Part shown: positions 1-28,200 of the stretch, piece after piece | Layout of the letters: each line of letters begins with the position of its first letter | Position numbering within the stretch: position 1 is the first letter of the stretch | Assembly (NCBI GenBank): GCA_025617745.1 | Contig: CM046869.1 | Span: 5,604,244 to 5,668,243, forward strand | Length of the DNA stretch: 64,000 nt | Direction: 5' to 3' | From: Heliocidaris erythrogramma | Taxonomy: Eukaryota > Echinodermata > Echinoidea > Camarodonta > Echinometridae | The notes under the pieces: model-generated | Seen by the model: the letters and a program-made list of their open reading frames with translations, nothing else | Told to the model about the DNA's origin: nothing | Database searches by the model: none | Made by a program: the position numbers and the translations under genes

Positions 1-1400
1 CACAACAACAAGCAGATTTTCCAGTTTACCCATGGAAGTCTGTAGATTTCAGATGATCTTGCTAGCCCTGTTACATGTATGTAATCCCATTCCAACATCT
101 TGATCATGATTGATGACCAACATGCAGCAGCAGGTATGTCCCTGTTTATTTACATAGTGGATTACTGAAGCCAAGACAATGCAGTTCCACTATTGGCCAT
201 CTCCCTAGCACTTTTCCATGATAACTTAGACCTCATTTCATAATGACACTGGTTTTGTGGAACTGCTTTAGTGCATGTTGCAGATACATGTAGTTAACTT
301 TCTTTCTTTAAAACTGATGTGAATCATTCAGGGCATTTTCATGATATGTTCAAACTTTTGATCAGGTCTGGTTCATTAAGTTTTCTTTGCCTCAAAGCTT
401 GAGACGTGCTCTACTTTGTTGTATGTTGTTGTGGTACTCTAAGCATTATATTCCATGCATTGTAGTATAGTTGTTAGATCACTAAAACCTGCAAAAAAGA
501 ACTTAGATGTGTTACTATTTAACATTTGGTAGTAGTACTGAGCTGTTAGTTTTGTCTTTTTTATGCCAAATGTTTTTTTGAAAGAAAGAAGTGAAGATAT
601 GGTTCACTTCACAAGGGTGTCATGTCCGTTACGCTAGCATATTAATACTATCTGAGAAATATTAGCCTATAAAGGAGAAAACACCATAGCATCAACTAAT
701 AATTTGTTCTGTTTTGGTATGGAGGGTAGTATTAACTAAAATGTATCATAAATTGTAGCTAGCTGGTGCAGAAGCAAGTTTGCTTTATTTTTTATATCTT
801 GTGTAAACATTGAAAAACCAACCCTTCTAAAATTACAGAAATATATGAGATAGTACAGAATACCAGTTATGATGTGTGTCCCTATCTTTCAACCTTACTA
901 TATGAACAATAAAATATCTGCCATATCTCGTAATAAAACAAATATGTCCGCTCACAAAAAGTGGACAAAACTGTCATGTCCGTTACGCTCAATGCGTCAT
1001 GTCCGTTACGCTACATTCTGAGCTATAAAAAAAGAATGCAATGTAAAACTAATCTCAAACATGAATTTATGATTACAGCATGACTTTAAGTTTTAATTAA
1101 TACCCAAACCAGGTTCATTCTATCCCAAAACTCACAGGAATTTTCATAATAAAAAGTAGGTTAAAAAGCCTTGTCCATTTTGTGTCATGTCCGTTACGCT
1201 CACAACGAGTGCATTTTCTCCACGACCGTTCAATAAAATGATGTGAAATTTCATGAGTATATCCCTGATAGTCAAATGTGTCTGATAAACTCAATAAAAA
1301 TTGTTTGGAGACTGCCAATTCTATTGTGTGATGTTTTGAATTACAAAAAACTGTCTGAATGTCATGTCCGTTACGCTGGAATTGACCACATGCTGATGCC
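1..1400. repeat. Repeat copy A with five exact 17-bp motifs
   Basis: GTCATGTCCGTTACGCT occurs exactly at 619, 973, 996, 1184 and 1361 (start positions, same orientation). Flanks of several copies (AGTGGACAAA before the motif, CTGAATG before the last copy, GGAA(T/C)TG after it) also occur beside the related motifs at 14945-15677. The block is therefore one member of an interspersed family. The left edge is probably outside the window. Sequence between motifs is AT-rich and encodes nothing recognisable. Confidence 0.7.
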
Positions 1401-1440
1401 TGGCTTGCTTTTCGCTGAAACTACATATATTTTAAATTGA

Positions 1441-2035
1441 AGAAGTAAACTAAAACTTCAACTATGGATTGATTGCATTACTTACGTTAAATTTGGTTAA
1501 CCAACCTACAACTTACCCAAATTTCCAAAACAATGATTTATCATGTTTATTGCGTCTGCCCACAGTTAGCCAGGACTCCGACTAGCTTTGTGAGTGTAAA
1601 AGAAAAAAAATTTGGCTATACGCCTTTTACATCACAAAGCTAGGTGTTTTTTCCGCCAATCTAATTGCGCACGGGTTAACAGGACATGGAAAATGCCCTG
1701 AAATAACACTTTCCTGATAACTCCTGCGACCGACAGGTCCTTCAGGCTTCACCACAGCATCTCCTAGGGAAACTTTTGGAATGATTATTTGTTTATGATT
1801 ATACATATTTTACAAAAGAATACAAAAAAAAACATAAAAATTTCAGAGAACTCACAAGTGTTTGTGTCCATGCCTCCACTTGTCATGCAGATTTAAAATG
1901 GCAGCTGCGTGCGATTATTGAAACTATACGTTGCCAACAGCGCACGCAGTCGCTCGGGATTGGATTTCAATACATGTACATCCAACAAAGCAATCACAAT
2001 ATCATGAATATTGACTTTTGCCAGCCATGCCAGCC
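1441..2035. other. AT-rich DNA, no feature recognised
   Basis: No convincing exon, RNA gene or terminal repeat was seen. It sits between the 17-bp-motif repeat and a LINE tail. Confidence 0.4.
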
Positions 2036-2290
2036 AGACCACTTCTTCACAGTGCACTCAACCCGCGGAACTGGAGGTCAATCGTTGAGAATCTTCAAGC
2101 AACGATACAGGCTCAACCTAAGAGGGCACTTCTTTAGTCAAAGAGTTAATAATGATTGGAACAATCTTCCCCAGTCAGTGGTCACTGCACCTAATTTGAA
2201 TACATTCAAAAGATGACTGGACAATCATTGGTCCAAACTAAAGTATTTGGCACGTGATCCAACTCTCTCTAGCGTGCCCTTAAAGTAGTT
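2036..2290 (+). pseudogene. Decayed LINE reverse-transcriptase C-terminal tail
   Basis: The + frame reads HSTRGTGGQSLRIFKQRYRL, then NLRGHFFSQRVNNDWNNLPQ and SVVTAPNLNTFKR, a TGA, then LDNHWSK. This F-SQR-V-x-WN-LP-x-VV-A-x-x-x-x-FK-x-LD-W pattern is typical of the extreme C-terminus of jockey/CR1-type non-LTR retrotransposon polymerases. An in-frame stop and the absence of upstream RT motifs mark a dead 5'-truncated fragment. Confidence 0.7.
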
Positions 2291-2330
2291 GTGTCTGTTA
2301 ACCCCTAAGAAGAAGTGACCGGAAGACTAA

Positions 2331-5300
2331 CAGTAGGGTGTACGAATGCGCCACTCATAGCTACATTCCTATACTTCGTGTGTATAATGTAGGCAGTCAT
2401 ACACCTCAACTTTTTAAAACACCACTGCACAAAAGTCACAAACATTCACTCAAAATCGGCATTTAATTTACAAAAACCGACCACTAAATATCCAAGAAAT
2501 ACAATAAATTCAACTCACCGATGTTGGAAAAGATATTTCCAAAAATCAAATCTGTAATTTACTGTTGATTCTCGCGGAACGAGCTATCGGAGTCATTGTG
2601 TACATTTCCTGGTCGCCGCGGGCACTGACATCTCCCCCAAAGATTTTTGTCCTTAAAAATTCGGTCCCTATGTGGCATACACGGAAAGTCCCGATTTTCT
2701 GTGTGCGCGATCGTAAAGATCGATGTGCGCTTGCGATCCCGAGTTTCTTCGTGGACAAAAATTTTATTGGCCGATTTTAGTCTAAGACATCGGCAGTATG
2801 TTAACAACACGCGATCGCGAAACAAATCGGCGGGGATTTCTCCCGTTTTGGACAAGATTTTGACTTTAGATTTTGCTGAAAATATCAAAAGTTCTTTGAT
2901 ATTTGGCCATTTGAGGTAGGAGTGAGATTTTTAAGGGCTGAATTTGAAAGCAAGTATTTAAAATATTTATCTTATTTTTTCCCCCATACCTTTAGTACAT
3001 GCGACAGAAAATACCAACTATTTTACAGAAATGTACCCGTGAGTGGAATGCGCCACGTTTTGCCTTTTGCACTCGCGTACAAAAAACTAGCTCCACAAAA
3101 ACTGACATGCCTTTAAACATTTTGTTGTAGAATCATGCAGCACATTTTATTTAAAAAAATGACTAACAAATCAAAAAAGCTTTTTTTTTCAAAACTTTTT
3201 CACATACAGATGATATTTGAGTAAAGTAAAGTGATTTGGGGGGGGGGGGGGTGATTGAAAACCACCAATGCGTCCTGTTTTTGATCAGCACCGCGATCTC
3301 CACACACACAAATCCAATGCGTCGCGTAGGTCCTCATAACTCGTCACGGTTTTGGGATAAAATTCAACTTTAAAGCACTTCTGACAAATGTTCCCATTAT
3401 CAAATTATCATACTGTATGTGGTACCAAAAGAAAGAGAATTTTGTGCTCAAAGCCGATAGGGGTCCATTAAATCACTACAACTACATTGTATGTCAGCGA
3501 GGCGTTTAAAAGAGATCTTCAAATTCCCATATCCCAATATCAAAGTCATGGACCCCAGACTCATTTTAGTATATCGATCATGCCAAATCCGATTATGATG
3601 TTCCTTTTTCGCTTATCCCTGAAGATCATGTTGTAAAATGTACTTGAAAATACCCTTAGCTACTCAGCAAAAATTATAGGTGGGGCTTTAATAATTCATG
3701 ATGCCATAGCTACATGCGTGGGCTCTGGCGTGAAAAGGAAAGGTTGCAAGACCTTTGCCGCGTGTGCTGTGCATGTAACCTATGCTGTTTTCAGTGCAAC
3801 ACAGCTCATAACTTCCATTGAGAACGTGTTATTTTCATACATTCCAAGCCCATCGTATATATTCACCCATATTTGTTTTTGATTCTGTGTTATTATTTCA
3901 ATTGATTTTGTGATTGAAAATTACTGTATTGATGTTAAATATTTTATTATTGAAAAAAAACATGGACAAGGTACAATTTATTCACATGATGAGACAAAAA
4001 AACCATTACCAACAGTTGACAAACACAGAGTCATAAATGAGGCTACACAATTTTGCCGTCATGGCCATGCATGGTAAACAAACACATACATGTGCACAGC
4101 TAGCTAGCTAGCTATACACACTATAAAACTGCGCAGGTCCGAGGCATGCCAGCGAGCTTACATCAAAAAGACAAATGAAATTGAGAAATTTGGCTGCTGT
4201 AGGCAAGGTTTAACTTCTCCCATAAGAATAAAAATATAGGTTTAGGTGGGTCTGTTATTCCTAAAACTCTTTGGGGATGCAATCTTGTTGAAATCTAGTA
4301 ATGATACGATCATTAAATTTTTTTTACTACCGGTATACCCAGACGTTGTAATTACGGACAGGTTGTTAATCTGGACAGGTGATTTTTTAACAGTAAATCA
4401 AACAACTTTTCATGCAAATTGTCACCAATCTTTTACAGGATAGGCTTAAAATCATGTGAATTCCAAATATTCACTTGTTTGAGTGTTACTTGGTGCATGT
4501 TTTTCGTAAAATCTGACGGCAAAATTGACAGGCTAATTTTTGTTATATGTCCGGAAATGCAACCCCCCCCCCAATCTGACTGGTCAACGAAACAAGCAGC
4601 TACATACATGTACATTCATCATGCATGTGACAAGATCGTGCCTGTGTATTTGTGTGTTCTCAAATAAATGACAGATTGAATGACTCTGGCCTGTGTGCTT
4701 CTGTGAGTGAGAGCGTACAGCTGAGGGACAAAAGCGCAGCCGCTGCAACTTCTGCAGCATCACCAAGTGCAGCTGGCTGGCACTGAGCTCACATGAAGCA
4801 CACGGGTACCCAGCCTTGGCCCATCAAGAATGTGGGGCTTTCCGCAGAGCTGGTGCCCAGCGAGGTCTGCCATAGACAAGGCACGCAATTTCATCATGGT
4901 TGCGCGCTCTCTCCGGCTCTCTCCAAGGAACAAAATTTGAGAATCTGTGACCCCAAAAGCGTACACGGAGGGGTCCATGGGGTCACAAGAATGTGATTAG
5001 CATATCACGCGCTACAGTATTCTTAGCAACACGCGCATACTGAGGGAAGATAAACGCTAGACTTCAACACTCCCATTATTTAATGTTGACAAGCGAACAG
5101 TGACCATATTTTCAAGTCATTTTGACAATGTTTGGCAGAAAAATGACCAAACTGTGTTTGGCTATAACAGAGATGCCAAGTTCAAAAAAATTTTATGCGT
5201 GAGATTTTCATGACTCAGCGCGCGCCGTATCGACGCACGATCCATGGCCATTGGTAGGCCTACGTACAAGAACCATGCGATGCGCGCGCGCGATTCATCG

Positions 5301-6570
5301 TACTAATACAGTATATCATGTACGTACCGTGTACGTAGTAGCTGATATGTACATTCATTTGCTGCAGTGCGCTCTCGATTCGTCGCACGTGCCAGGCTAG
5401 ATGGCTCGTGCGAAGGCGGTCGGCCAGTGCGTAGTCTAGCAAATAATGCTACTTTTTTTTTTTTCCCCTGCCGGGTCCCGATGCGTGAGAAAAAAACGTA
5501 GCTCTGCTATAATTCAGCATTAAAATGAAATTACTCTTTGAAATTTGAAATCCCGGGTCATTTATTTTTTTCCTTTTAAATGAATCTAAATATTTAGTCC
5601 AATTCTACTCTATTCAGAAGATAACATTTTACCCCGGACACCCTACTGACAGGAGTACCTTCTCTTTCGTATAATGCTGATGTAAAATTGGAGGCTTAAC
5701 ATATATTTTCAATTAATTTTGTACATTGTTTTTAGCGACATTGAAAGTTTAGTGACACAGAAGCATGGGGTCTGGTCGGGCTAGTTGTAGACCAAATGCT
5801 TCAATCGCTCTGAGCATGCTGAGACTATGTCTCGCTCCACTGACCTCCAGGAAAAGCTGAAAAATGTCAGTAATATTAAAGATTTCCCCATAACAGACGG
5901 TTATTTCTGTCTGGTCTGGTCTGGTCTAGATCTAACATTAATACTTTCAGTTAAATTTTTAAATTTTGCATGTGACAAACAAAGTTTGCAGATGCTAAAA
6001 TAAATATTGATGGGCGTGATGGTGAGGTGACCATATTTCGCACACATTTAAACAACTTTCAGGAATGTGATATTCGATCATGTCGATTCTTGATTTCTCA
6101 TATTCTACAATAATTTTTTTACGTAGACTCGTACTGATTGGAAAGCAAAATTCTGGAATAAAAGTGGTTCCAACAAGAAAATTAATCGACCAAGAATTTA
6201 ATTCAGAGATATCGCGATCTCAAAATCCGGTGTCTAATCTCAACGCACTGGAACTGAAAAAGGACATAATAAAAACCATGGGACCTAAGTTAGGGCACGT
6301 GAGTTTACATCTGAGTTATCCAACATGGGCTAGTACTCGGTCCAAGGAGTGCTAGTAGACCTATTTGGTAGAAAGAGCTTACCTTCTTAATTCGTAGTGA
6401 CGTTTCTCTAGCCCACCTTCGGAGGGCATACAGTGTATGATCAGATCTCTTCTTCGAGACCTCTGCATTTAGCACCATTGGAGATTTTGTCAGAGCTATC
6501 CACTACTGCTCCACTACTGCACCACCATGTAAGATCCTAGGAATCCCCCAAAGTGTAGCAAATGAATCTG
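2331..6570. other. Region without recognisable gene upstream of ATF6
   Basis: Short open frames only, none with a recognisable domain. Contains a poly-G run near 3238-3251, an AGCT microsatellite near 4100-4113 and GC-richer patches near 2570-2860 and 5215-5300. The missing first exon(s) and promoter of ATF6 could be here, but I could not identify them. No TATA box with a matching first exon was convincing. Confidence 0.4.
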
Positions 6571-6576
6571 TCTACC

Positions 6577-6612
6577 TGCCTGATCCCTGCCTGATCCCTG
6601 CCTGATCCCTCT
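6577..6612 (+). repeat. 12-bp tandem repeat (CTGCCTGATCCC)
   Basis: Three back-to-back copies of the 12-mer, directly before a 93-bp imperfect duplication. Confidence 0.8.
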
Positions 6613-6613
6613 C

Positions 6614-6798
6614 TACTCCCAAATGGAGCTAAACAGCTTCCTTCTATTAGATCAACCCTGATCCCCCCAAATCAATTCTAGAAGAGGACCCTTCTCCATC
6701 CCTCTCCACTCCCAAATGGAGCTAAACAGCCTCCCGCTAGTAGATCAACTCTCCAATCTTCTTCCAAATCAATTTGAGAAGAGGACCCTTCTCCATGC
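6614..6798 (+). repeat. Imperfect tandem duplication, period 93 bp
   Basis: CTCCCAAATGGAGCTAAACA recurs 93 bp apart and is followed in both copies by matching text (TAGATCAAC, CAAATCAATT, GAAGAGGACCCTTCTCCAT). The second copy leads into the LINE-like open frame at 6716, so part of a retrotransposon was duplicated after insertion. Confidence 0.8.
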
Positions 6799-7117
6799 AA
6801 TCATCTCACAGGTACCCCTCATTAAGGCTTGGGACAAAATCCTCTGGAAGTACGAGTTACCTGATCTCCCAAACCTAATGGAATTACCTATCCCCTACCC
6901 CAAATGGAAATCACTGGTTAAGAAGCTTGTCCACCAAGTAGTGCTCAGTGAGGTTTCTGAGGCCATATGTACCAAAGCTACATGTACACTCTCTCTATGG
7001 AATGTTCTGGATCAACTCCCATCTTCTTCATCACTATTCTCCCCTAATTCTAGCACCTCACCTAGGCAAGGCACTGATTGCCAGATCCCAGCTCTTGACT
7101 CAAATTTACAAATTTAA
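6716..7117 (+). pseudogene. LINE ORF2 C-terminal fragment (probable)
   Basis: A 133-codon open stretch contains FEKRTLLHAIISQ, a Trp/Leu block (ILWKYELPDLPNLMEL), KWKSLVKKLVHQVVLSEVSE and SLWNVL. The order 'small helical block, Y-LP...L, (P/S)-x-WK-x-LVKK-I-x-W/E' is seen after the RT domain in several invertebrate LINEs. No RT or zinc-knuckle motif remains, so the call rests on a pattern. A lineage-specific exon is the alternative, but no splice sites of the right phase were seen. Confidence 0.4.
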
Positions 7118-7457
7118 TCCTGAATAAATTTATTTCTCTATCAGATTTTCTTCCCAGTCTTGGTGATTTCTATCTCATTATTCTTCTTTTGCTAACTTCT
7201 ACTTGATTCCAGGTTGACAAATAGAAACAGTTCTTAGATCAGATTATTTTTAATATTGAACAGATGACAACCACCATCAAACGAGACAACAAATTAGTAA
7301 AATGTTTCACATGTGTACAATCCAATTAACTTATGATGCATTCAGAAAACTTTGCATATTGTCTGAAGTTTGTTGCCAGATCCTAAAATAAAGTAAGACC
7401 AATGATATACATGTAGGTTGTTGACCAAAATTTAACTTAAAATAAATATTTTTGCAG

Positions 7458-7555
7458 GTGATCCAGGGTTCTACAATGGAAATCATGTACAAGATTTATC
7501 AGAAGATTTAAGTGTTGCTGAAGAAATAGCTTTTAATACTGGACTGGATGAGGAG
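7458..7555 (+). CDS. ATF6: ATF6 exon: N-terminal acidic region
   Basis: The exon follows TTTTGCAG and ends before GTAAGT. It needs one base from an upstream exon to complete its first codon, then reads 32 codons with no stop ([11 protein letters not shown]...TGLDEE). The D/E-rich composition fits the N-terminal transactivation region. No upstream exon ending in the right phase could be recognised in 1-7457. Confidence 0.75.
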
Positions 7556-10500
7556 GTAAGTAACACTGTATGTAAATATGATTTTTTTTTCTTCCAAATC
7601 AGCTCTTCCTGGATTTCATGTAAAATTCTTTTATGGGGTGGGTAATTTCTTTTTAGTTTTGGTCTCATCAATGTTAACTGCCCAGTTTTTAGCAATGGTT
7701 GAATGGAAATAAAAAAGCCCAAGATGTTAGATATATATAATATTTGTGATATTTTACAATTGCTGTATACATGTATGTAGACAACAAAGGCAGGACTTTC
7801 TGGTTGCCCAAGAGGATTTGAATAGGTCAGTGGCGCCAGGGCAACTGCTCTTTTTGAGCTAACCCTAGCTCACTGTTGTGATTACATTTATCTCAGTTGA
7901 AATTGAATGAGGATAAAAGTAATATTGTAAATTTTTTTAATGATTTTCTTTCATTTTATTTTATATTTTTTTTGCAGGATGCTCTGTCTCGATCAAGTGA
8001 CTTTTTATCCAATAGCTCCTTTACAGGGGGCTTGACCTGCGATGACCTTAATATTGACTTGACTAAAACCTGGCTTGGCATAACCGATGAGGAACACCAC
8101 TCAGATGGTAAGTTCAATCAAGAAAGATGATTTTAAACAGTGTTCTGAATAAACCTATTACCTGCTATATAAAGTCTACATGGAAATCTGAGAATGTAGT
8201 AATCAATGGGTTCATCAGCCTTAGCTTCTCGCATTGAGCCCACTGCACACTATACCATCGACTACGATCCAATTTTGGAAATTAATTGCAAAGCATTATA
8301 TACAGAGTGGCTAGTTTGCAGGAAATTTTGAAAAGAAAAGCAGTATTTCAGGGGGGAAAAAGCACAATATGCTTGAGAAGAAGGCAACAAAGCTTTTGAC
8401 TTTCTTAATGTGATATTTGATTCATTTAAACAGCTTAAGGTGGGCTTTTGACCTCAGATACCAGGAAACTTTGTGTGTTAATGATGTAGTTCAGGAAATT
8501 CTTACAAGTTCAACTACATGTAGCATCTCTGAATATAGGCATTTTAACAAGTGAAAGCTATCCGATTCAGGTTCTGAACAATAAAAATGAATACTCAACA
8601 TAAGAATTTGGTGTGATAAGGGCCAAATCAGTTTCAAATCGTAGACAATTGCAGGACTGCTCTGATGTCTCTATGATTTAGAGCCGATTTGGCCTTTCCT
8701 GCGACTAGAAGGCTCATAATTTAGGGCTGTAATTTCATTTTTTTCTCTACAAACATGTAACTATTCTGAATCTCATTAGACCTGTTTACTAATTTTATGC
8801 ATACTTTTTGAACAAAAGTTTCTCTTGATGACCTGAAAGCTTGCCAGAGGCTTTCCCCGACATAGCAACAACTAATCAGGCATGTGAAATTTCCGCGTTT
8901 ACCTGAATTTCTGCGTTTTTACAATCATTTTCTCACCTTTTTATTCTCTTTCTGTGCTTTTGTAAATTTCGGAGGCAATGAAAAACCATAGATTCACGTA
9001 TCATGCTACGTGAGCAATTTGTATAAAACGCCTGGTAATAGAGACTATCAAAATCACCCAGCATGCACTTGGCGAGACTGCACTGGGCGAGTGATCGCTT
9101 TGCGCGGGGAAACTCTGGCCGGGCGACAGGGCCGGGGAGCTCGCCGAGTTGGTTAAGCATGTGGGGATTCGTGCGTGTATTGCGTTGCATGGATCCGCTG
9201 CTGGATGTGTCTTCGTTTTCGAGTGCAAGTGGGACTTCGTTTGGATATATTTTTTCTGCTTTTCTGTAACTTTTTTTACTGATGTTAACTTCACAAAAAT
9301 GAAACAGAGCCACAAGAAGAAGGTGTTAAAGAGACTAGGAAAGAGAAAAATTGTGTAGTCTGTATCAAAATAAACAATGAATTACATGTAATCTAGAATT
9401 GTGAACGTGAATAGCATATGTGAATAAGTAATATCTGTGTATGTTTGCGTTCTAGGGTGCATATTTGTCAGTGTCTCAATTACTATAGAAATTTGTGGTC
9501 TATCATAACACACCTATCCAGAAACAGTTTTTCCTAATTCCTATGCCTGAATTTCCTCTCTTGGTATGCACCATATTAAATAATTTCCAAATATAAAATG
9601 CAAGAGCTCCCTACCGTGGGAGGGGCGTGCCCACCGCGGCGGCCCTATACCCTACCCCTGCTCGGTCGCTCCGCTCGCTCGCTCGCATTGTTTGCTCGCT
9701 CGCATTGTTTACTTTCCTCTTTTTTTTTTTTTTTACCTCACTCACATGCCTGCTAATGTATGCAAAATGGATTCCATCTATAGAGACACCATTATGCGTA
9801 GCAGGTGCACCAAATAGTTGGTAACTAAGGATTCTGGAGAGAAACATGCATAAATTGAAATACATTAGTAAACAGGTCTATTAAACATAGAATATACATG
9901 TATATAGTGCGACATTTTCTTTCAAACTCTGATCGTAGACCAATCGTTTATTGTGCAGTGGGCTTAAGAATATCTTTTGCTATTAATAACTAATGGCCCA
10001 GTCACAATGTCGGCGATCTGTCGGGGATTAGTTTTGGCCGGGGGTCGTCGTAGAAAATAAAGAATCCTTGAACAATCCTAGCAATAATCCTAATAAAAGT
10101 GGAGCAGTCACATTGTCTGAGATTTTTTCAAGGATTTTGACCCGGTTTTGTCCAAAAATCGTGGGATTAGCCTCCGATCGCCTCCGATTGCATCGGAGGG
10201 GATCGGAGACGATATCTGCGAGCGTCTTTTCTTTTAAATTTTTTCCCCCTGGGTATATGTGGGGGAAAAGGAGGGTTTCTTGACCTCGGTCATCTGTATT
10301 TCTCCCTGTACACTGTAGCGCATCTGGTTGTACATAGAACAGTCACTTCAACAGCCTCCTGCAGCAAGAGCGTCTCAAACTTTTAGCGTTCCGGTCGGAG
10401 GCGCCCTTATATACACGGCGATTTACTACCGTCACGATTCCACCGTACGATTCGTCGGAGACGATCACAGAAAGCGTACGAATCGTCGCAGGGCGCCTCC

Positions 10501-13500
10501 GATTCAGTCGGAGGGCGCCGGAGACTACTCGCAGACATTGAATCTCAACCTGAATTTCCAATCCCACACAGAATCTTGCGACTAGTCTCAGATTATTCGG
10601 GGGACGCCTCCGATTAATCGGAGGTCATCAGAGATTATGTCTGGGATGCCCAAAATGGGTGAAAAATCATGCGAGCAATCTCAAAATTTTAAGTTCAAAG
10701 TTGGGGACCGCAACGGGTGTGGCGATGCCTAAAAAATCTGCGACAAGCCGCAGGCGTCCGGAGAGCGCCTCCGACCGGTGCAAAATCATGAGATCTGTCT
10801 CAAAATTTTGTTAAAATTTCCCGGGTTTTACCCATCGCCGACGCATCGCAACTGATTTGTGACTGGCCCATTACCACCTTTGAGATGTAAAATATGTACA
10901 ATGTATTACAGCATGCATTAATGGGTTTGTCTACAAAGTTGCTATCTTCATAGAAATTCACTGCTAATTGTAGGCCTACAAACAGGTACATGTATTAGTC
11001 TGTGTAAAGCAGACACTTTGCAATATTGGAGGTAAAAACACACTATCCAAACATACATGCTGATTCCTTGTAAGAAAAAATAAGTATTAAGTTTTGGTGT
11101 CCATCATCAATTTTTTCATGATGAAAAAATGTGACATGCACATATAAATATTTTTGGCCTACTTATTTCCAGGAATGAAATAAAAAATTGATTGCAATAA
11201 CGATAAGCAATATACTCTTTAACATCAATTGTACTTGTACATGTAATCAAAATCGAAACAGGATGGATTCGTGTAATATTTTATAGCAGACTTCGCAAAG
11301 TTGGCATCACTGACTCAGCAGGATGGTGTCCACTAATGTTGAATAGGAAGCATAGGTATTTTCAGCCAATGTTTTATTTATGGGATAGTTATAATCATAA
11401 ATCTTACTCTCCATACTACATGTACATGTATGAGGTAATTATCTTGCCAGTAATATTTGATAAATCAGAATATGATCATGCATTCTTACATGTAGGTATC
11501 ACCCAGGCAGTGTCCATGTGGTTGAATGAAGGGTTGGTAAAATCAAAACAATCCCATTAAAAATCCCACCTTTATCATAATAGATTGGTCCAGCAAAATC
11601 TTGATAAGTCACAGCGGTTGAAGTACATAGCTGGTTTAGCACCGTTTAATAGTGCAAAGATTGAAATCTCTTTGTCGAGTGACAAACTTTTAAATATTTT
11701 ATTGCATTAATATTAATATTATTTGGAAATGAAACATCTGGTTTTGTTCCACTGTGACACCATCCCAAGGATGTAGCTCCACAATAGGAGAACATATAAA
11801 ACTATGACACACTGTAACCTTAAAAAAGATAAAACTAAAGTACATGTCGTTGTGCGATTTTGAAAATTTGGCTCTCATGTCACACATTCAACTCAACTAC
11901 ATGGACAGACCGATATAAAAACAATGCTGCAAAAGAGAAAAAAATATGGAAAAATAATTGTACTTTAGTAATACTAGTTCATTTAGTTGTGTGTTGCCAA
12001 ATTGAAGATGATATTATGCATGTTCACATTTTTACACTCAGCTGTTAATTTGTGCAATGAACAAAGACGGACAAAAGATTTATTTGAAGAAAAAAACAAC
12101 AAAAAAATCCATACGGAAACATTACGAACCTGAGAAATTTGACTCTCATTGTATTATAATATACATGTATACTTCAACCAAAAATGAAAAAAGTAACATG
12201 ACTACTGTACATACATTTAATTACATGTTATGTTGAACTGTACATGTTATCAGGTTCTTTTCACTTTCCTCATTGCGCATTTATGTCTACTTGAAGTTAG
12301 GGGAAGTCCACTCTGGTATATATTAGACTTTGATAAAAGAAATAAGAATAAGAAGAAAAGATCAGCAAAACTATTAAGGTAAATCTGATAAAGAATAGAT
12401 AAATGTGTAATCATTATGTATAAAAGATATTATTGGTCAAACACAACATAACAAAGAAATACATAAGAATTAAAAAAAAAGAAATACATAAGAATTGGTC
12501 AACAAAGTGCAAAAAGAAAATCATCAATCTAAAAAAAATTGCATATTTGCATAATTAAATAAGAAAAACAATGTTATCTTGCACAATACATGATGAGACA
12601 CAAACACGCCAAGTTTGGTCTCAATCGGTCTATAAATGGCTGAGATCTCAGGCCCCCCCGGGCTATATAGAGTTAATAAAGATGCATGTATGTAACTTGT
12701 TGTGAGGGTAGAATTCCCCTTTAATATTGATCTGCTTTCTGCATGCACAGAAAATTTATTGCCACTTAAGAAAACAAAATATGAGACATGCTATTGGTCG
12801 CTATGGTGACCATACATTAGTGCTCTTGTACTAAGTGGTAAGTGTTGAAAAAATTTATAAATTGAAACATGATGGAACCATTTGCCTATTCATTGTAGTG
12901 CTCAGTTGGTGATAAATCTTTTTTTTTTTTTTTCCAAGGCCTGCCATCAGTGAAATATAGTACCTTATTGTTCACAGGAGCTTATTGCAGATTTTTAGTA
13001 GTAACACTGAATTGAATTTGCAAAAATATTTCTCTCTCTCTCTTACACACAGCTCTTTCTGCAGTTCTTTTTGAGATTTTTACAGCAAATTTGTACACCA
13101 CTCAATGTGTACTGCTTACTTCTCCTACACTAGAATTACAATGGGCCTTCACGTACATTACATGTATGTGATACTCTATTGTAAACAAAGAGCTACTGTA
13201 CACTGTACTGTTTACACTGACATGGTGGTTAGGAAACATAATGATCCTGGCTTGACAGAGAAAAATCACAAATCAATTTTTTGTTAATGTAAATATATAC
13301 ATTGTGGTAAATGATTAATTTTATACCTTATTGTTTGTTCCTTTTAATGGCACTTGAGAAGTCAACAATTTACTCCTTTCCTTATGATAACCCTCTTATT
13401 TTAGGGTTGTTCATGAATAGAATTTACATACTTTACTGAAAATATACATTGACTAAAGCTAACTAAGAGCAATGTATATTTTCAATAAAAGTATACATAT

Positions 13501-16500
13501 CATTTAAATACATATCAATTGTTTTTTCTTACATGTTTCGACAAATTAATAAACAATCCAATTCTTTTCATGACCAAGACAATTTTAAACAATACCTTTG
13601 GTGTGGAAATTATTTATGAAGGAAATACACTGGTGATTGGGCAATGCCATGAAAAATGGAAGGGAGAAAAAAATGAAAATCAAGGAACAACTTTGTTTTA
13701 CCCTGGAAAGTATTCAGGAAGGGTCATATCAAAATGATATACATACATGTACATGTATGTAATAAAAAAAAATGTGGCCCAGTTTGGAAAAAACCTTTTT
13801 TTTTAGCTATTGGAATAAAGTGTTTGTTCACAGAGATTGCAGAAAAATTCAATGTGATTTGCATGCATTTCTTCTAAAATAAAAATTGTCACCACAAAAT
13901 GACTTTCAGGAAATTATTCTTATGCTATGATTAAGCTGAGGACTCATTTTAACACCATCCTGCTGGATACCAGAAGAAAATAATTCTTTTCTGAAAATTG
14001 GCCATTACAAATTTGTTCATTTCCATCTCGCTCAAAGTGTAATGTCCGTAACGTTTTAGATGTAAAAGTTTTTATAGCACATTGTGTTTGGTCCAATTTT
14101 GTTCTAAATTTAAATGCAAAGCTAAAATGTGACATCACACAACATATGTAGAGAATTTTTCAAGAATTTGCATAATTCATAAAAAAAGCACAAGTACAGC
14201 TGCATATGATTGCAGTAAAACATCTACACTGCAATGTTGATATCTGTCATACACGTAAATGGATGCCCTAGTCATTACATTAACATTAATTTGGGACATT
14301 TCCTCAGCAACAAATTTCACTAATAAAGGTTTTGATTAATCCTCTACAATCTTGTTATCTACTAGTATGATGGGGGACCTAAATTCTACGCACTTTGTTT
14401 CCAGTGGCTAAAAAGTCATTTTTTTCAATTATAAATGTGAATTTTCTTTTATATCTTGGTTCTACAGACTCTGAAATTAAATCCCTGAGAAAATTACGAC
14501 GTACATGTATCAATAACATTAATTTTCAAGTTGATGTCGATACCCATGTCAAATTTGGCCGACAAAATGAAAGGGTCCTAAAGCTGTGCACACGTAAAAA
14601 TGAATACAAATCTTGATTTTGAAGCTTACTGATGTGAATTTCACCCTGATTTTCAAATAGTGATAATGTCACAAGAATAAAGGAAATTTATTCTTTCTTT
14701 TTGACAAACGTAAATCATAATCTCGTTGCACAGTCACATCAAAAGTTTGGAGCATTGAACACCTAGCTTTATGACCCCTTGCTATACTACCCTGCCAATC
14801 ACTCTCTGATTAAGATAAGACTCTCTCGGGCATGGCTGCAAACTGTGTGTAACAGCAACTGCTTAAATTTAATTAGAATAAAAGTTGTTTATTAGTGTAG
14901 AGTTGTGCTCAGCCATGGGCATACATGTGGATGTGAATGACAAGTGTAATGTCCGTAACATTTCTTTGACATCACATTTTTATTTGTTCTGAGTTTGAAT
15001 ATCGTTATAGAATGTCAAAAGGCTGATCTACATGTCATTTATACATGTAGATCACCATTCTATTGCTGACAAAATAAGTTTTAAATTCCAATATAATAGA
15101 AAAGTAAATAAACTAATGAAGTAGGGGTCTATGCCTAACAAATAGTCCTCAAATTGGCAACTCGTAAAATAAAAGATCTCATGAAAGTACTATGGCAGCA
15201 TTTTGAAATGTGTACTGTACATATATTGCCATCCAGGTCAAAAGAATAAAAATTATCAATACAAGCTTGTGACCCCTACTACTTAATGAAAGTGGACAAA
15301 TCTGTAATGTCTGTAACGCCACAGTCATGGCTCTAGAGGGTACATGCTTCATCTTTTTCACTAAATTAAATTTTATTCTAATTTAACATTTCCTTACCTT
15401 TCAATTTATGGGTAAATTGGTCTGTGCGCTTAAACTCAGACTTTTCAATGAATATATAGTCCATGCAAAAAGTCATGTGCAAAAAATGTAATGTCTCTAA
15501 CGGCAAACATTATATGCAGTAACTACAACACGATGTGCTAAAATGGATTGAAACTTTCTATAATTTAGGGTCATTTGTTTGCGATTCCATTTCATGAGTT
15601 CAGAATAAAAAAGCTGTGTTATCTAAATGACCTTTTGAAGTTGCAAAAATTATCTGAAATGTAATGTCCGTAATGCTGGAACTGCCCTGATTGTTTTGTT
15701 CTTTCACTAGGTGTATTTTTCCCCCAAGCCTCAACATTGCTTTAATTACTTAAACTGCAGACAGGGATGGTATTCTAAAATTAATTTTTCTTTAATTTTA
15801 GTAAAGGGTCATAGCGAATCTGATTTGCAAATTGATATCTACATGTACATGTATGTTTTCTGAAATGTCTGATTATGCAGCAACATACAAGTACATGTAT
15901 ACTGTTAATACGTGGTTGGGAGTGTGTTAGTGCGATCCGGCAATACAAAGGTTTTGCGTGTTGCCGATTCGCACTAACGGGTCTACAATCTTAGTGCTTT
16001 CACTTACCTCAAACTGTCATGGCATGTCCCATGCATGAATCCTGCTCAGCAAAACATGTAGTAGACTGTTGCAAACGTACAATGTTCATTTACAATGTTT
16101 AGGCCTAGTCTAGACGGTTGCGAACGTATATACAATGTTTATTTACAATGTTTAGGCCTTGTCTTAGACCTATTTGTTAGTAATGTGAACCTGACAATAT
16201 GGAAGTGCTATTGAATCTGGTTCACCAATGTATTTTCACTTCCTTGAGCTTGGCTGAGCATGTTCGAATTTGAGCTTATATTGAAGCTTGAAGATGAAGA
16301 CAAGGTACCATCAATGACACTAGGAGTAGGACTAGTACCAGTACTAGCACTCGTAGTAGTAACAGGACTAGTACTAGCACTAGTAGTAGGAGTAGGACTC
16401 TGAGTAGGAATCACTTGGCACAGTTTTGTTCTTCTCTTTTTACAGCTACTGTTTTTTCCATCAAGAATGAGCCCCTGTCACCCCCTCCATCTTCAGATTC

Positions 16501-17961: not shown

Positions 17962-20900
17962 ATTGGTGTTTATGCTGATAATGATGCTGATGATGCTCGT
18001 TGTGATAATGAGGAAGAAAGTATTGATAATGATGATAATGAGGATGATGATGATGACGATGATATTGGTGTTAATGCTGATCATGCTGCTGATGATGCTG
18101 GTTGTGATAATGAAGAAGAAAGTATTGATGTTGTTAATGATGATAATGAGGATGATGATAATGAGGATGATGATAATGAGGATGATGATGATGACGATGA
18201 TGAGGATATTGGTGTTACTGCTTATCATGCTGCTGATATACTGGTTGTGATAATGAGGAGGAAGAGGGTATTGTTGATGTTGATGATGCTGATGCTGATG
18301 GAGATGGTTATCATTGTTTTGATTGTAATGTTCAGGGTTATACTGATTGCTAAATGACCATGATGATGTTGATAGCAATTTAGGTGCTATTGTATAAAGT
18401 TGGTAACAAAAGAAGTTGACTTACATGTACTAGTATCAGTTGCCTTTGGCATAGATAGAAACATGAATTGTAATCCTTCTATTAAGAGTACTGTGAAACG
18501 TGATATTTATAAGATCTGGACCCATATTACCGTTGAACTTAACTGTTTTATTTTATAGGTGAAAGCTTGGAAGAGGCAGCAAAGAATGATAAAGAATAGA
18601 GAGTCTGCATGTTTATCTAGGAAGAAGAAAAAAGAGGTAAGAATAACCATCATTCATATGTGACTTTCACAGAGAATTTTATTACCCACCCACGCCGATC
18701 AAATCGGCAACATGTATGTAAAGGGCTCCGTATGTTTGTTTTTCTTTTTTTTTGTTTGTTTGTTTTTTTTTGTTTGTTTGTGTACAAGATAACTAGAGAA
18801 TGGGTGAGTGGATTTGCACCAAATTTTCAGGGAATGTTCGGATAGTGACAGGAAAGAAACGATTAGATTTTGGTGATGATCGGTTATAGGAACTTCAGTT
18901 CGGATAGTTTTTTTTTATATTTTATTACTTTTCAAAATAAAATTTTTCACAATAATCAAGGTAAAATACACAAATATATTCACACGCAGTATCATTGTGC
19001 CAAATTACATAATAATAACAATAAGTAACCATAATATTTTACATGCATGTATTTAATAGATTATGCCAAATCTGGAAGTCTTTATTGCGATAAAAAAAGG
19101 AGAAAAATATAAAATATAAAATATAGTGACAGGAAAGAATCGATTAGGGAAAGAACGCAACTACTCTGTAGCGCCGCTAAGGCGTGGGTCTGCCGCCTTT
19201 GACGGCCTTTCTAGTTACATTTAAAATAGAACCATGGTCCACTGTGAGAGTTGGGCAAAGATCAATGGCATACATATAGCTACAGGGAGGCATGTGCCCC
19301 CTCCCGATTGAATGGTGAAAAAAAGAAGAAGAAAAAAGAAAGAAAGAAAGTATGAGCGGAAAAGCAATGTAGAAAGGATGTCTACACCCATCTCTGCCTG
19401 TATGGCATCTTCATTCTTTAATATAATCCAGTTAATATTTCCCTTGATACCCACCACTTATGATGCCTGTAGACCTCAGTGGTTGGAATCATACACTGGC
19501 AAAGATACATGTCTTACATGTAGTCTCATTAGTCTCATTGGATTATCCAATGTGGAAATGTTAAATTGCTCTTGTTTTTATCTGGGATTATTACATTGAA
19601 AATTATCTCAATTACTTGTCTTTAAATCTATATTTTCTCTACATGTACAGTATATCCTCTCCTGTCAATTCTCATTCTTTGTCTCTCAATTTCATTTTTG
19701 CTTCTCTTGAAAATCTGTACCCACATATATAAACATTAAAATGTATGTACATTGTTTTTTTCATATTTCACTGTCCTGTATCTCTCTCCCTTGTTCACCA
19801 CTGACTTCTCTCCACCATTCTCTCTTGTCCTCTTTCAAAATATTCTTGTTCTCTCTCTCTCTCTCTCTCTCTCGTTTTTCTCTTACAAATACCCATTCTC
19901 TCTTTTTCCGTAACTCTGTCTCTCTGTCTCCTGTCTCTCTTTCATTCCTGCTCCCTATCCTCTTTTCCTACATATCTCCTGTTTTAGTATGTACAAGAGT
20001 TAGAATGCAAAGCACAGAGTATGGAGAAAGAAATCCAGAGATTAAGATCAGAAAACCTTTCTCTCAGAAGTAAGATGGAAACTTTGGTAAAGGAGGTAAG
20101 CTACTACATTCCATATTTTCAATCCTTTGTTTAATACACAAATATCATGCATTATTCATTTTCTAGGGCAGCTTTCCAGATTCCGTGTGGTTTATAGTGG
20201 GGAAGGTAAGGATGCTAGTTTTCGGGTTTTCAGCTGATTTTCGGCCATATCACTTCGCTGTTTGTAGTATTTTTTCAGAATCCATATTGTACAGAATGTA
20301 CTGGGCTCCTACATTCAGGCTAATTGGGGATACCAAGTGGTATCCACTTTCTCTAAGGATGCTTGGTGCATTATCATCCCCAACCTTGTTACGTGTATGG
20401 CAGGTCCAAACAACACTCCCACAGTTTATCTTAAAGTCTTGGTGACTAGTGAGGCTGTTTCATTTAACTTTTTATTGAAACATGCAAATTATCAGGGTTT
20501 GAAAGTTTCTACATTATTTTTTAATTGTGATTATGAATCAGTGCTTTATTAGAAAAAAAATCATTGAAGTTACCAATTTTTTGTTCTCCCCCAGTATATG
20601 TTTAAACAGTGATTTTAATTGGTGTTTATTGGCCAGTTCTGTAAATATTTTTGAAGGAATGAAGACAAACAAAACACATTTTCTTAGAGTTCTTCATTAT
20701 TGTGTTTATTTCTGGATGTGGTTGATAATGCTTCACCTTCAAGTTGTCTGTTCCATGCTCTATTATTTTTTAGGAGCGTACTTCACAGTTGACGTAGAAA
20801 TACACCCTGAAACTGTACTCAGCATCTTTTATCTTTTATAAACAGGAAAGATGGTATTAACATAATTAATCCAGCTATATGGCATCTTGTAAGAATTCAA

Positions 20901-22264: not shown

Positions 22265-25200
22265 AAGAAAAGGAAAAAAAATAGATAAAAGAAAGGGACG
22301 CGACACGCAACAGTAAAACAAAACACATATAGGATGCAGAAGAGAACAAGACAGGCAGCGTCGGAACAGAACAGTAGATAGTAGAGGGGGAGAAGAGGGA
22401 AGGAGGAGAATAGATTGGAAGAGGAGCAGAGGTCTACAGCGCAATCGATGCTTACGGTCGTCATTCGTCATTAGCCGGTGGACGATGCTTAAAAGAAAAA
22501 AAAAAATAATGTAAAATATCAGTCTCGTGTGAAAAGCATGAAGGCTTGGTGGGAGATATAATGTTGAATTAAATATTTCTTTAGCTTTGTTTTAAATGTT
22601 AAAATACTTGGGGCATTTTTAATATTTTCATCCAGTTGGTTCCAAAACCTTGGGCCAGTATAAACAAAAGTATTTTGAGCTTGTATTATTCGTAATAATG
22701 GTAAATGATATTCATTGGTCCGGCGAGTAGGGTAATTATGGACATGATCATTTCTAAGAAAGATATTATTGAATATTTTAGGTAGTTCGTTATTCTTAAA
22801 ATTAAACATTAATTGACCTAGTTGATGAAGATATAAATCTTTGACTTTAAGTATATTATTATTGAAAAATAATTCATCAGTATGAGCACGAAATTGTAAA
22901 TTAAATATTATTCTCAATGATTTTTTCTGTAACAATAACAATTTATCAAGCAAATATTGGTGTGTATTTCCCCATATTAGAATACCATAGTTTAAATACG
23001 GTAATATCAAACTATGGTATAAAGTAAGCAGAGTAGATTGAGGAAAACATAATTTCATCTTATTGATGATGCCGATATTACGAGAAATGGTTTGACAACA
23101 ATTATTAATATGGTATTTCCATGATAATTTGTTATCCACATGTACTCCAAGAAATTTAATACAAGTGACTTCTTTTAAAGGGGTGTCATCAATTATTGCT
23201 TTGTCAGGCAAAGAATTTAAGGAGTTACTAAATAGCATGACATTAGTTTTTTGCAAATTAATAGACAGTTTGTTTGCTCTTATCCACTGGGTCACACTTT
23301 TTAGTTCATCATTCATTGTACGTAGAAGAATATCGGAATCAGAATGAGAATAAAATAAATTTGAATCGTCAGCAAATAATATGAAAGATAATTTCTCAGA
23401 AGATCTATAAAAGTCATTAATATAAATAATAAATAATAGTGGCCCTAGAATGCTGCCTTGGGGAACACCACAAGAAATGTCGCACATAGCGGAAGCATGA
23501 TTGTTGACAGAGACAAACTGTTGTCTGTCCGATAAGTAACTCCTGAACCACTCCAAGGCCTTTCCGCGGATACCATAGTGATATAACTTATTAAGTAAAA
23601 TGTCATGGTTGACTGTATCTATAGATGCAGAACCAAAATATGAGGATGCAGAAAAAGTATTTAAATCTTTGAAGAATTTAAAGTAAAATAATATGAAAAC
23701 TTTTATTCAGATATGTCTCATTCTAATTTTAGAAGCACAACAAAATGGGCAGTTTTCCTCTTTGCGTCTTTCCCGCGTCTTTGTGCGCCATTGTGATTTG
23801 CTAAGCTCCCTAACAAAGTCAGGCATGTATTTGATTTTGAATCATGATATTTGATATATGCGTAATTACATGTAACTGCATCCCAAATAGGTGATAGATG
23901 ATTAGCCAGATGCAATCTTTTGTTCAAAAGCTGCAGTTTTATGAGCAACTACATTTTGCTCAGCTACCTAATGCTTTTTTTCTTCACATGCATACATGTA
24001 TGTGATTAAAGATGTATTTATTCTTCTCATCTAGCCTTTTCAGTCAAAATGGTGGTGTGCCCTCGGACTATCAAACGAGTAACCATGCAGGTCGAGCACT
24101 TCTCGGTTTCTCTGGGACATCTAATGAGAATGCGTCTCAGCTCTACAGCCAGTCCAATCAAGCCATTCCCAGACATGCCTCCATTCATGACATCATGGAA
24201 GATGTACATCTCTGGGAGAGCATAGCCAATCAGTCAGCTTCAGATGTTGCCATAGCAACCATGAAAGAGATCCGTTATCTACTGCCTCAGGGCAACAAGT
24301 CTTGCCCCCATCAGATGAACATTACAGACACTATCAGGTAGATTGAATTGAAATGAAATGAATGGGATTAAATGGGATTGCATAGAATAATCTATGTTTC
24401 AGGGCAACAAGTCTTACCCCCATTAAATGAATATAACTGACACTGTCTGGTAGTAGAATATAACTGGATTAGATTGAATGCAATTTGAATTCAATTCAAT
24501 TTGGATTAATGAAATTGAATTTAATTAAATTGAGGTGAAAAAGTCTTGCCCCATCATATGTATATAAGAGACAATCTATCATTAAATGGAGGAACCATAC
24601 TTAACCCATTATATTAATTCTATTACCAAATGAGAAATATAAGAAACTGTATATTGGTGAGGTAGCAATAGGAGTCATCTGGACACGATTAATCCCTTGC
24701 CTAATTCACTAAAGTGTTTATTGTCTGAAGTTACAAATGATGTCATATTCAAGCCATAAATGTGATGGAGTTATAAGCTCGGGTGTACAGCTCCAAAAAA
24801 AGTTCTGAGTATCATTGTCAATAATAATGCTGACAAACTTTCTAATTTAAATCAATTATTTTATATTATACTGTTCCATTACTTTCTTATGTATTGGATT
24901 ATTTGTATTTCGTATGTATTCTTCTTTTAGTTTTGGCGGTGTCTTGAGCAATTTGTGAAATTTGTATTTCCCATGTGTTTGTACACTAACGTATGCAAAA
25001 TGTTGATTTTTGTCCAACTTTGGCCTGACATGCTACTTTAAAATGTGTAAACTCACAACAGATGGTCCGCTTTCCACAAATTGGTCTTAAGCATTGCATG
25101 ACAGAAGGCATGTCTCAATCTGCAGTTGTTGTACTCAGTGATTTTAGGACAAAGTATTAAGGTATTTCAAAATATGCCTCTGGATATCTCTTATAGTGAT

Positions 25201-28200
25201 ATATAAGTTAATTACGTTTATAAATTTCACTTATATGATTTGCTGTTTAACAGCATAATATGCAGCTAAATGCAGATCTAATCTAGCAATCCTGTTTTAT
25301 GTTTGATTGACAGGTTGACTGATGTCCTTCAGTTCTGGGCTAAAAAACAAACTGTAGAGCAGAAGAAGTCTAAGAAAGAGGAGGAACTACAAAAGAAGGT
25401 ATTTTGGAAGTCAGAGGTCACAGTTGTATTTTACAAGTTTCCAAGGGGGGGGGGGAGCTGCTGTCTTTTGCCCAAATACAAACTCTCTTTTTCTAAACAG
25501 TTTTAAAAATCAGCGAGTAACTGGTGGAGCATTATACATTAATTTGCAGTGTTCGTAGTAATTTTATGCATTGAAGTACAGATTACCCCTGCCCCTGCCC
25601 TATGTACCAAGGTACATATTATGTCCCATATTTTACCATGTGTGATAGGTGATGAATGTAAGGAATATTGCAATGTCATTTTACTGGATATTTGTTCTGA
25701 TCTGAGCTTTAGTACGGCTATCATGAAAATATGATCATCAAGTACACTAAAATTCTGAGATGTAATGGTTACTTTATGGAACAAAATATCATGGACTTGT
25801 CCATGTGTATGGCTGTAACTATACAATAAGCTGGAATTCAGTGGCATAGTAGATTGTATTGATTTTATTTTCTTGTTAATTTACAGTAAAACTGAATGAA
25901 AAATGATGCCAAAATTTAAATTTTTTTAGGAGGGACTGGCTTAAAATTTTCAGCAGCTATACATTATCCACCAAAATTATTGGGCATACAGTGTAAGTCT
26001 TTTATAGTCTTGAAATGTCAGTGTAAGCTTTAATTTGACTCTGTTAGAATTAATTTTCATTCATTACAAGAACTCAAGATTACTTTTAATTCTGATTTTT
26101 GGATCACACTTTTAATGGTCAATATCTTTTTTCCAATGTTTGTCATGCTATTGTTAACATTCCATAACTCAACTTTTTATTGCCTTTTCTGTTTTTAATA
26201 TCTCTTTCTTTCTAGAAGAAAAAAAAAATACGTCAGTCTCAGTACAGGCGCTTCCGCTCTGGGCCACCACTCCATGTGGAGTCAGAAGAGAGGGCGCTGC
26301 AGCTTTACGATCATTTTTTTCAGAGGACGTACGACAATCTGCTTGAGGCTCTAAACAGGAGAGATGATACCTTCTATGTGGTGTCTTTCAGAAATGTAAT
26401 TATTGCCTTTTTGATTTGTTTCAAACTAATTTTGTTGAGGATATTCACTCTTTCCCTTTTAAATGTAATCTCTAGTTGTGATAAGTTTCTAAGAGAGAAT
26501 TTTGCTGTAACTCCTAGTGTGTGAGTTTGGCTGTATGATCAATCTGTAAATGAGGAACAGTTCTTTTTTCATATTTGTGTACTTTATAAACTCAAAGAGT
26601 TTATACTGGAGATATATTCCATATTAATCTTTAGTGCCTTACATTTATAGTTCTAGTAATAATAAAAGAAGATATTACAGAATTCTTTGAAATTATACCC
26701 TGAATGTTAGACTAAAGAATTCTGCATTTTGATATGAAATTTGTACTTATTAAAAGTATGGAGTAAAGAAAGTCTTGTAAATCAGTTTAATGGTGCTGCA
26801 AATAAAATACATGTCCCCATATTTGATTTGTCTCTGCTGATTCTTTTCAGTGCGTGGGTAATTTTCACTAATTTTCCTGTAATTCAAACAAGTTTTGTAA
26901 ATATATCACTATTTTATCTAGTCAGAACAACCTTTCTAACTATAGCATAATGAGATATAGTAGAATGGTTATTTGAAGAAAAAAAAAATTAAGAGCAGAA
27001 CTCTAATGTTGACTCTACAATTTGATTTTTCTTCTGTCTGTGCATAGAGTTGCTTGTTGTACAGCTGCTGTATGGAAAAACAATGTGAATTTAATTAAAT
27101 GAGAGTGCAAGATTCATGTTATGAAGTGTTTTGAAGTGTTTTGAAAAAAAAAATATTTTCCAGAAGATGTTTATCTTATGGAGATTGATAATAACAATTT
27201 GGAGAAAACAATGTGTTTATACCACATGTTACAGTCAATAATGATATGTACATGTACATACTATTTATGGAGCAATTACTTCTAGATTACCTTGAGAAAA
27301 TGTTTGTTTCACAAGCAACAATTTTCAAGATCATTGTACACAAATCGCCCTAGCATTTATCCTATGAACTACTCTTCATTTGTGTTGTACACAAAATTGT
27401 CTTCCCTTCTATCCCCCGCCCCTCACCCTCCCTTCATTTTCCCCTTCCCCTTCCCTTTCCCTATCCCCCTCCCTTCCCTATCCCCCTCCCTTCTCCTCCC
27501 CTCCTTTCCCTCCCCTCCCTTCCCTTCCCCTCCCTTCCCTTCCCTTCCCGTCCCTTCCCCTCCCCTCCCATCTCCCCTCCCCTCCCCTCCCTTCTCCCCT
27601 CCCCTCCCCTCCCTTCTCCCCTCCCCTCTCCTCCCCTCCCGCCCCTTCCCCCCGTTTCCCTCCCTCTCCAGACCCTCCTATTCCTATCTCCCCTCCCCCT
27701 TCCTTTTCCCCTAATAAATAAATATTATTAATCTCTATCAATTATCATATTTTCCTGAATCTTAATGCCATTTATTTTTAGGATCATTTACTGTTGCCTG
27801 CCACAGCTCATAACAACACCCACAGACCGAAGATGTCCCTTGTCATGCCAACGGTCACAGCTAATGGTAAGCTCTTTCTCCTGTTATAAAGCAATAAATA
27901 CAGTTATTGTGGTAGTTCAAAGATGTGAATAGTAGGCCCTCTAATAGTGAATGCATTTATAGGTAAACAATCGCATTATGAAGCAGAATAGAAAATTTTT
28001 TCTGTTGCTCTTGCTTGAGGGTTTGAAAAGAGAATGCAAGTGAAATACATGAAGCTATAATTTAATACATTCAATGGCAGGAAAGTATGCATTTTGACCA
28101 TAGACGATCCGCCCTTTTGTTGATTGTGCCCCCGCCCCCTTTTAGAATGAAACCTTCTTTTTTTTGCTTGTCAGAGAATTATGGAGGGACCCCCATAACC

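Follow-up and report, generated by a model that had tools for sequence, protein, structure and literature searches.

The window analysed here, a 64,000-bp stretch of the genome of the sea urchin Heliocidaris erythrogramma (assembly GCA_025617745.1, contig CM046869.1; C17:5604244-5668243), contains two ladders of a 17-bp motif, which we term the box. With a probability of about 0.8, and as judged from sequence, these ladders are two transposon copies that differ in age, the box being most likely the binding site of the transposase of an autonomous partner. Three families with such boxes are distinguished below, each with its own box variant: family A, to which the first ladder belongs; family B, represented in the window by the second ladder; and family C, recovered elsewhere in the genome.

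The sequence GTCATGTCCGTTACGCT occurs exactly at five places in the window (Table 1); up to three mismatches, seven matches are found, namely these five and two copies in ladder B, against 0.04 expected and with none of 100 shuffles reaching seven. A weight matrix trained on all ten sites of the two ladders and scanned over the window recovers the five B sites with scores of 18.8-26.6, the best other score being 10.8. The boxes are on the plus strand throughout, at successive steps of 354, 23, 188 and 177 bp in ladder A and 907, 358, 184 and 173 bp in ladder B. The two ladders described in a first-pass annotation of this DNA, five exact 17-mers at 619-1377 and five diverged versions at 14039-15677, are thus real, and nearly all of its positions and spacings stand; the second B box lies at 14946 instead of the implied 14945, giving steps of 907 and 358 and not 906 and 359. 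A scan with Rfam at gathering thresholds yields no matches. An open minus-strand frame spans two of the boxes, yet the steps of 188 and 23 are not multiples of three, and we reject the idea of coding repeats. The best plus-strand partners according to RNAduplex lie at 58.9 and 45.4 kb (-23.1 and -21.9 kcal/mol respectively, raw energies without a null). Viral contigs have 19 single matches to a degenerate 16-mer of the box, with none having two sites, and pairs of boxes 166-196 bp apart number zero in both prokaryote and viral contigs. Six 12-mer box cores, used as literal strings, have no occurrence in the papers searched.

A search of the host genome (1.064 Gb, 26 contigs) with the 17-mer at up to two mismatches, as proposed in the first-pass annotation, finds 2,425 places, split 1,191 to 1,234 between the two strands, as compared with 69 for a backwards control, and establishes the multi-copy family anticipated there. 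The 100 of these places that were listed group into 23 loci, each with two to five sites, and 20 of the loci were fetched; the commonest intervals among the matches listed are 188 (18 times), 23 (17 times), 177 (17 times) and 354 (12 times). An element of about 2.09 kb is present in all 20 fetched loci, one of which (L031) is without the left end in its fetched stretch. The element begins with GGGCAATTCCATGAAAAATG and finishes with GCTGGAATTGACC, give or take a few point differences. The long matches of five query copies are 95.9-99.7% identical. The terminal repeats, GGGCAATTCCA and GGTCAATTCCA, match at 10 of 11 bases. A 4-bp flanking duplication is exact in 18 of the 19 copies having both ends (shuffled pairs: mean 2.1, maximum 7), flanking matches at 5, 6, 7 and 8 bp being found in zero, one, zero and zero copies. 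These target duplications vary (ATAT, ACAT, CTAT, ATCT, ACCT, AAAT, TTAT and others), the commonest bases at the four positions being A, T, A and T in 13, 12, 13 and 15 of the 19 copies. The copy in the window is whole in the genome: its left end, read in locus L067, is at C17:5603555, 689 bp before the first base of the window, and it has ACAT both before the left and after the right end. A 14-bp inverted repeat at 327-340 and 1689-1702 was considered as the terminal repeat and rejected, as 1689-1702 lies outside the element.

The full layout of family A is seen in a 2,091-bp copy (L043) with eight boxes: a plus box at 382; two minus boxes forming a doublet at 534 and 555; a plus box at 1323; and on the right a doublet at 1677 and 1700 followed by 1888 and 2065, all plus, the last adjoining the terminal repeat. 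By a strict test all eight are intact in 10 of the 20 copies; the boxes lost are 1677 in five copies, 1323 and 1888 in three each and 382 in one. With at most eight box hits per full copy, the 2,425 places translate into an estimated copy number of about 300 or more. Ladder A is best read as part of a young, internally deleted (non-autonomous) DNA transposon.

A candidate for the autonomous partner was found via a broken peptide that lies between the box clusters of a family B relative (L058). The best of its 31 genome matches, at C2:52595609 on the minus strand, falls inside an open frame of 399 amino acids. The 6-kb piece around it (L065), from a contig other than the window's, contains an element of 4,653 bp whose ends are of the A type (GGGCAATTCCA at its start, TGGAATTGACC at its end) and whose duplication is ATAA. 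Its boxes, five on the right and a doublet on the left, are exact throughout across a 15-base core; between the box clusters it has frames of 165, 399 and 176 amino acids, which are read unmended. Its right 1,150 bp are 98.5% identical to the 2.09-kb consensus and its left pieces 99-100%; it lacks 44 bp in the region of the first left box and carries, in inverted orientation, a 66-bp copy of a right segment that includes a box. Since this element combines the same ends and boxes with transposase-like frames, the 2.09-kb family, and with it the window A copy, is best explained as having arisen from an L065-like element by internal deletion. Under the Repbase rule, which asks for the same duplication length and for terminal positions 1-11 aligned with at most one mismatch (PMC4455052), the 2.09-kb element groups as a non-autonomous member of the family of the L065 element. 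The 399-residue frame used as a genome query has 103 matches, among which the L065 copy alone is stop-free at more than 50% identity over at least 100 residues; its next relatives, 70-86% identical, carry stops. Stop-free frames of 360-898 residues with 31-34% identity to it are also present in the genome.

Ladder B lies in an old copy of a second family and retains five boxes, at element positions 401, 1308, 1666, 1850 and 2023, the first of which is the positional counterpart of the left plus box of family A at 382. A fresher B copy (L059) has eight boxes in the same order as in A (+ -- + ++ + +), one with three mismatches. The B variant of the box, TGTAATGTCCGTAACG, is found at 172 genome places at up to one mismatch versus 22 for the control. 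The right approximately 450 bp of A are homologous to L058 and L059 (60-61% identity, E 1.6e-18 and 4.2e-18), and on this homology A and B are sister families. The impression that they are alike in their boxes alone was due to the old B copy of the window, and we discard it in light of the fresher copies. Within the B lineage, the decayed relative L058 has a fragment of the L065-type protein lying between its clusters of boxes. Another B copy, L060, contains at 1263-1544 an insert of about 280 bp with the ends GGGTAATTCCA and TGGAATTACCC, perhaps a miniature relative.

The third variant, TGTAGTGTCCGTAACR, has 324 exact genome places against five for its control. The 100 of these that were listed fall into 26 loci, five of them with eight sites each, arranged +++--+++ or the other way round. 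In locus L063 the left sites are at 0, 156, 174, 524 and 546; right sites are spaced mostly 362-375 bp among the matches listed, and the apparent left end of this family C is GGTATAGCC. Over 3.1 kb of L063, nothing but the box is detectably similar to the A consensus (best E 0.38). Two transposase relicts lie near boxes of this type: one at 3037-3850 (plus strand) of L066, about 0.5 kb outside the apparent left end of a C-type element, and one at C4:39836264-39837391 (plus strand), some 3.2 kb away from a C-type box on the minus strand and in the same relative orientation as in L066.

The guess of the first-pass annotation that the box is a transposase-binding site is the reading that these data support best: the variants are family-specific, and a box adjoins the right terminal repeat. 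As each family has its own variant at the same positions in all its inspected boxes, the pattern fits co-evolution with a family-specific protein. We propose that the boxes would be bound by the transposase encoded by the autonomous partner; that several transposase molecules would gather on the numerous boxes (and doublets) of each element; that these may help to join both ends before the element is cut out at its short terminal repeats; and that insertion would proceed with a 4-bp target duplication. On this reading the L065-type frames would encode the active transposase, the box variants and the transposase are likely to have co-evolved, and the spacing of about 180 bp may matter for assembly.

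Several points weigh against this reading. The left boxes of family A are of mixed orientation (plus, then two minus); hence orientation is no simple mark of the ends. Just one uninterrupted A-lineage frame was found in the genome search, which leaves current activity conjectural. In Pfam the L065 frames match DUF7869 alone, below the cut-off (E 0.0017, 18.4 bits versus 26), and a PDB sequence search with them gives no match at E up to 1; their identity as transposases is drawn from their being open and from short motifs that we take to be DDE-like. They have no match in the C-type loci L062-L064 (6 kb each, L063 covering part of the element), and the match in L066 falls outside the apparent left end of the element. 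Within family A, differences across 20 copies amount to 7/2538 (0.28%) in the box and 153/38561 (0.40%) in the flanks, compared as raw counts. Finally, for the hAT element Hermes a section heading states that auxiliary transposases bound within the ends are unlikely to support transposition in cells (PMC10368747); hence, internal repeats need not act as proposed here.

It is rather unlikely that the boxes are instead sites for a host protein, promoter or enhancer elements, or targets of silencing, which happen to lie inside a transposon. Their distribution is compatible with such a role: they extend about 770 bp from the right end, deeper than the repeats mentioned for Hermes (PMC10368747); they are CpG-rich, with 16 of the 26 CpGs of the A consensus falling inside the eight boxes; and the fetched parts of family C contain the box but no detected transposase. 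However, the presence of a family's own variant in all its inspected sites fits a family-specific protein better than one shared host factor, and at the right end of both A and B a box adjoins the terminal repeat.

The regularity near 180 bp that the first-pass annotation had remarked upon holds. Ladders A and B are jointly periodic near 181 bp (p = 5e-5 to 1e-4, period free), and when doublets are collapsed and one layout is taken per family (A and C), a shared period of 183 bp fits best (p about 1e-4, an indicative value, the collapsing choice and the interval range of the null having been set by the analyst). Among the matches listed, 31 of 42 C intervals of at least 100 bp deviate from 182 or 364 by no more than 16 bp; of the 11 that do not fit, nine measure 155-156 and the other two 339 and 426. 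The figure for A is 57 of 59, copies of one family not being independent. A and C share no detected sequence outside the box and yet have the same lattice. It is conceivable, though rather improbable, that the spacing itself was selected: boxes one or two nucleosome-lengths (about 183 bp) apart would let the transposase grip the linkers of successive nucleosomes and fold a kilobase of chromatin into a single synaptic complex. Among the papers listed (10 of 29), no title or abstract besides that of the Hermes paper concerns such a spaced arrangement, Repbase and most subscription papers lying outside this search.

The spacing had suggested a decayed satellite of about 180-bp units with a kept box, in which case the element would have captured, or grown out of, a tandem array. 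This is very improbable. The box steps do fit multiples of about 180 bp, and a weak motif-like word is present at three of the 11 empty lattice positions (P 0.009, 0.009 and 0.017); the other eight have none (P above 0.1). The sites are, however, little alike outside the box (identity by bin of 0.22-0.35 among A sites and 0.21-0.42 among B sites), Tandem Repeats Finder detects no array at the one ladder or the other, and what recurs in the genome is a dispersed element of 2.09 kb, bounded by terminal repeats and flanked by 4-bp target duplications.

The claim that the box is better kept than its surroundings stands clearly for the window A/B pairs, modestly against a fresher B copy, and fails within family A. 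In the window pairs, box positions 3 and 12 differ in five of five and most other positions are kept, whereas the intervals give z of 0.1-0.4 for three segments against shuffles. Among eight interval segments, the one adjoining the last box is matched by just 2 of 500 shuffles, two outer ones by 22 and 25, and the remaining five by at least 92. The 20 bases upstream of the box are 56% common to matched A/B pairs, versus 22-27% within A and 26-42% within B. A gap-tolerant alignment of A with L059 has 70 of 85 positions agreeing in boxes and 433 of 603 outside. It had also been stated at the outset that flanks as conserved as the motif would indicate a plain young repeat; by the counts over 20 copies given above, ladder A taken alone is such a repeat. 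That the boxes are functionless, hitch-hiking internal repeats, alike in A and B by common descent, is the least credible account: near-complete identity within A and the homology of A with fresher B copies, where the box is favoured only modestly, agree with it, but the window pairs keep the box core while most interval segments have no excess over shuffles, and family C has box and spacing in common with A and no other detected sequence.

With three families, three box variants and a countable layout, these elements offer a natural experiment on the joint change of a transposase and its binding site, and their nucleosome-scale spacing a testable case for chromatin spacing shaping transposon ends. 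They also carry a warning: a motif ladder with the look of a decayed satellite can consist of two transposon copies, one older than the other.

Table 1. Transposon features in the window (window coordinates)
Feature	Position	Strand	Basis or remark
Family A transposon, right 1,387 bp of 2,076 bp	1..1387	+	99.4% identity to consensus 711-2091
Box A1, exact 17-mer	619..635	+	exact match
Box A2, doublet member 1	973..989	+	exact match
Box A3, doublet member 2, 23 bp on from A2	996..1012	+	exact match
Box A4	1184..1200	+	exact match
Box A5, adjoins right terminal repeat	1361..1377	+	exact match
Right terminal inverted repeat of A, TGGAATTGACC	1377..1387	+	family left end GGGCAATTCCA; 10/11 match
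Target-site duplication ACAT	1388..1391	+	same ACAT before left end in L067
Possible target duplication TGATT	13634..13638	+	recurs 15688-15692; 5-bp match, family A rule is 4
Old copy of family B, 2,049 bp, GGGCAATGCCATGAAAAATGG ... TGGAACTGCCC	13639..15687	+	ends; BLAST to L058-L061
Left terminal repeat of B, GGGCAATGCCA	13639..13649	+	sequence
Box B1 (GTAATGTCCGTAACGTT)	14039..14055	+	weight matrix
Box B2	14946..14962	+	weight matrix
Box B3	15304..15320	+	weight matrix
Box B4	15488..15504	+	weight matrix
Box B5, adjoins right terminal repeat	15661..15677	+	weight matrix
Right terminal repeat of B, TGGAACTGCCC	15677..15687	+	sequence

The remainder of the window contains, on the plus strand, exons of an ATF6-like stress transcription factor, recognized with a human protein as query: the basic-zipper exon at 18559-18651 and luminal exons at 26297-26392 and 27782-27865. 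Exon-like frames seen by eye near 7.5, 8.1 and 16.4 kb may belong to the same gene; if so, element B is intronic. A LINE-like (long interspersed element) reverse transcriptase frame lies at 22519-23706 on the minus strand (RVT_1, E 2.4e-22), and a peptide around 61308, also minus, presumably resembles the MIR domain of protein O-mannosyltransferase. There are two further repeats: a direct repeat of 1,756 bp, 99.9% identical, at 30076-31830 and 32983-34738, reflecting either a very recent duplication or an assembly effect; and one of about 946 bp, 96.6% identical, at 51478-52417 and 57458-58393. Ordinary tandem arrays, unlike the ladders, are present at 46300-46991 and 49787-50392, with units of 161 bp (4.3 copies) and 170 bp (3.7 copies).

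Among known systems, alpha satellite has the 17-bp CENP-B box in units of roughly 170-180 bp; the boxes here are neither tandem nor satellite, and the likeness noted is one of size. Target duplications of the hAT and P superfamilies are 7-8 bp, those of hAT 8 bp, and none of the 19 copies has a 7- or 8-bp flanking match. piggyBac integrates at TTAA (PMC7351741), whereas the duplications here vary (for instance ATAT, ACAT, CTAT, ATCT and ACCT). Each end of Hermes has five AAGT repeats in its first 55 bp, the innermost repeat mentioned being at 276 bp, and the BED domains of the transposase bind the repeats closest to the left tip (PMC10368747). The present elements likewise have several short repeats inside their ends; unlike in Hermes, these are 17-bp boxes spread over about 380-770 bp from the ends in steps of about 180 bp. 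Galileo, of the P superfamily, has three THAP-domain binding sites inside its ends, with subfamilies differing in cross-binding, and these sites are within terminal inverted repeats of more than 1 kb (PMC3688188); here the terminal repeats are 11 bp, with the boxes outside them. The closest resemblance is to Sola2, for which 4-bp AT-rich duplications (AWWT, ATAT, AAAT, ATTT), terminal repeats of 12-13 bp or 21 bp imperfect, and families with most of the transposase region deleted are described (PMC3627910; Bao and Jurka, 2013). Family A shares the 4-bp AT-rich duplications (18 of 19 exact at this length, none at 5 and one at 6 bp) and the deletion derivatives; its ends are short and imperfect as well, a tentative likeness, being at 11 bp a base or two shorter than the 12-21 bp reported for Sola2, and a subterminal box ladder is not mentioned in the accessible part of PMC3627910. 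The best reading is therefore of an element Sola2-like in behaviour and at most a candidate member, the basis being duplications and ends. In sum, the family looks ordinary in kind, subterminal repeats being known from other transposons, and unusual in the length of its box, the reach of its ladder and its nucleosome-scale spacing.

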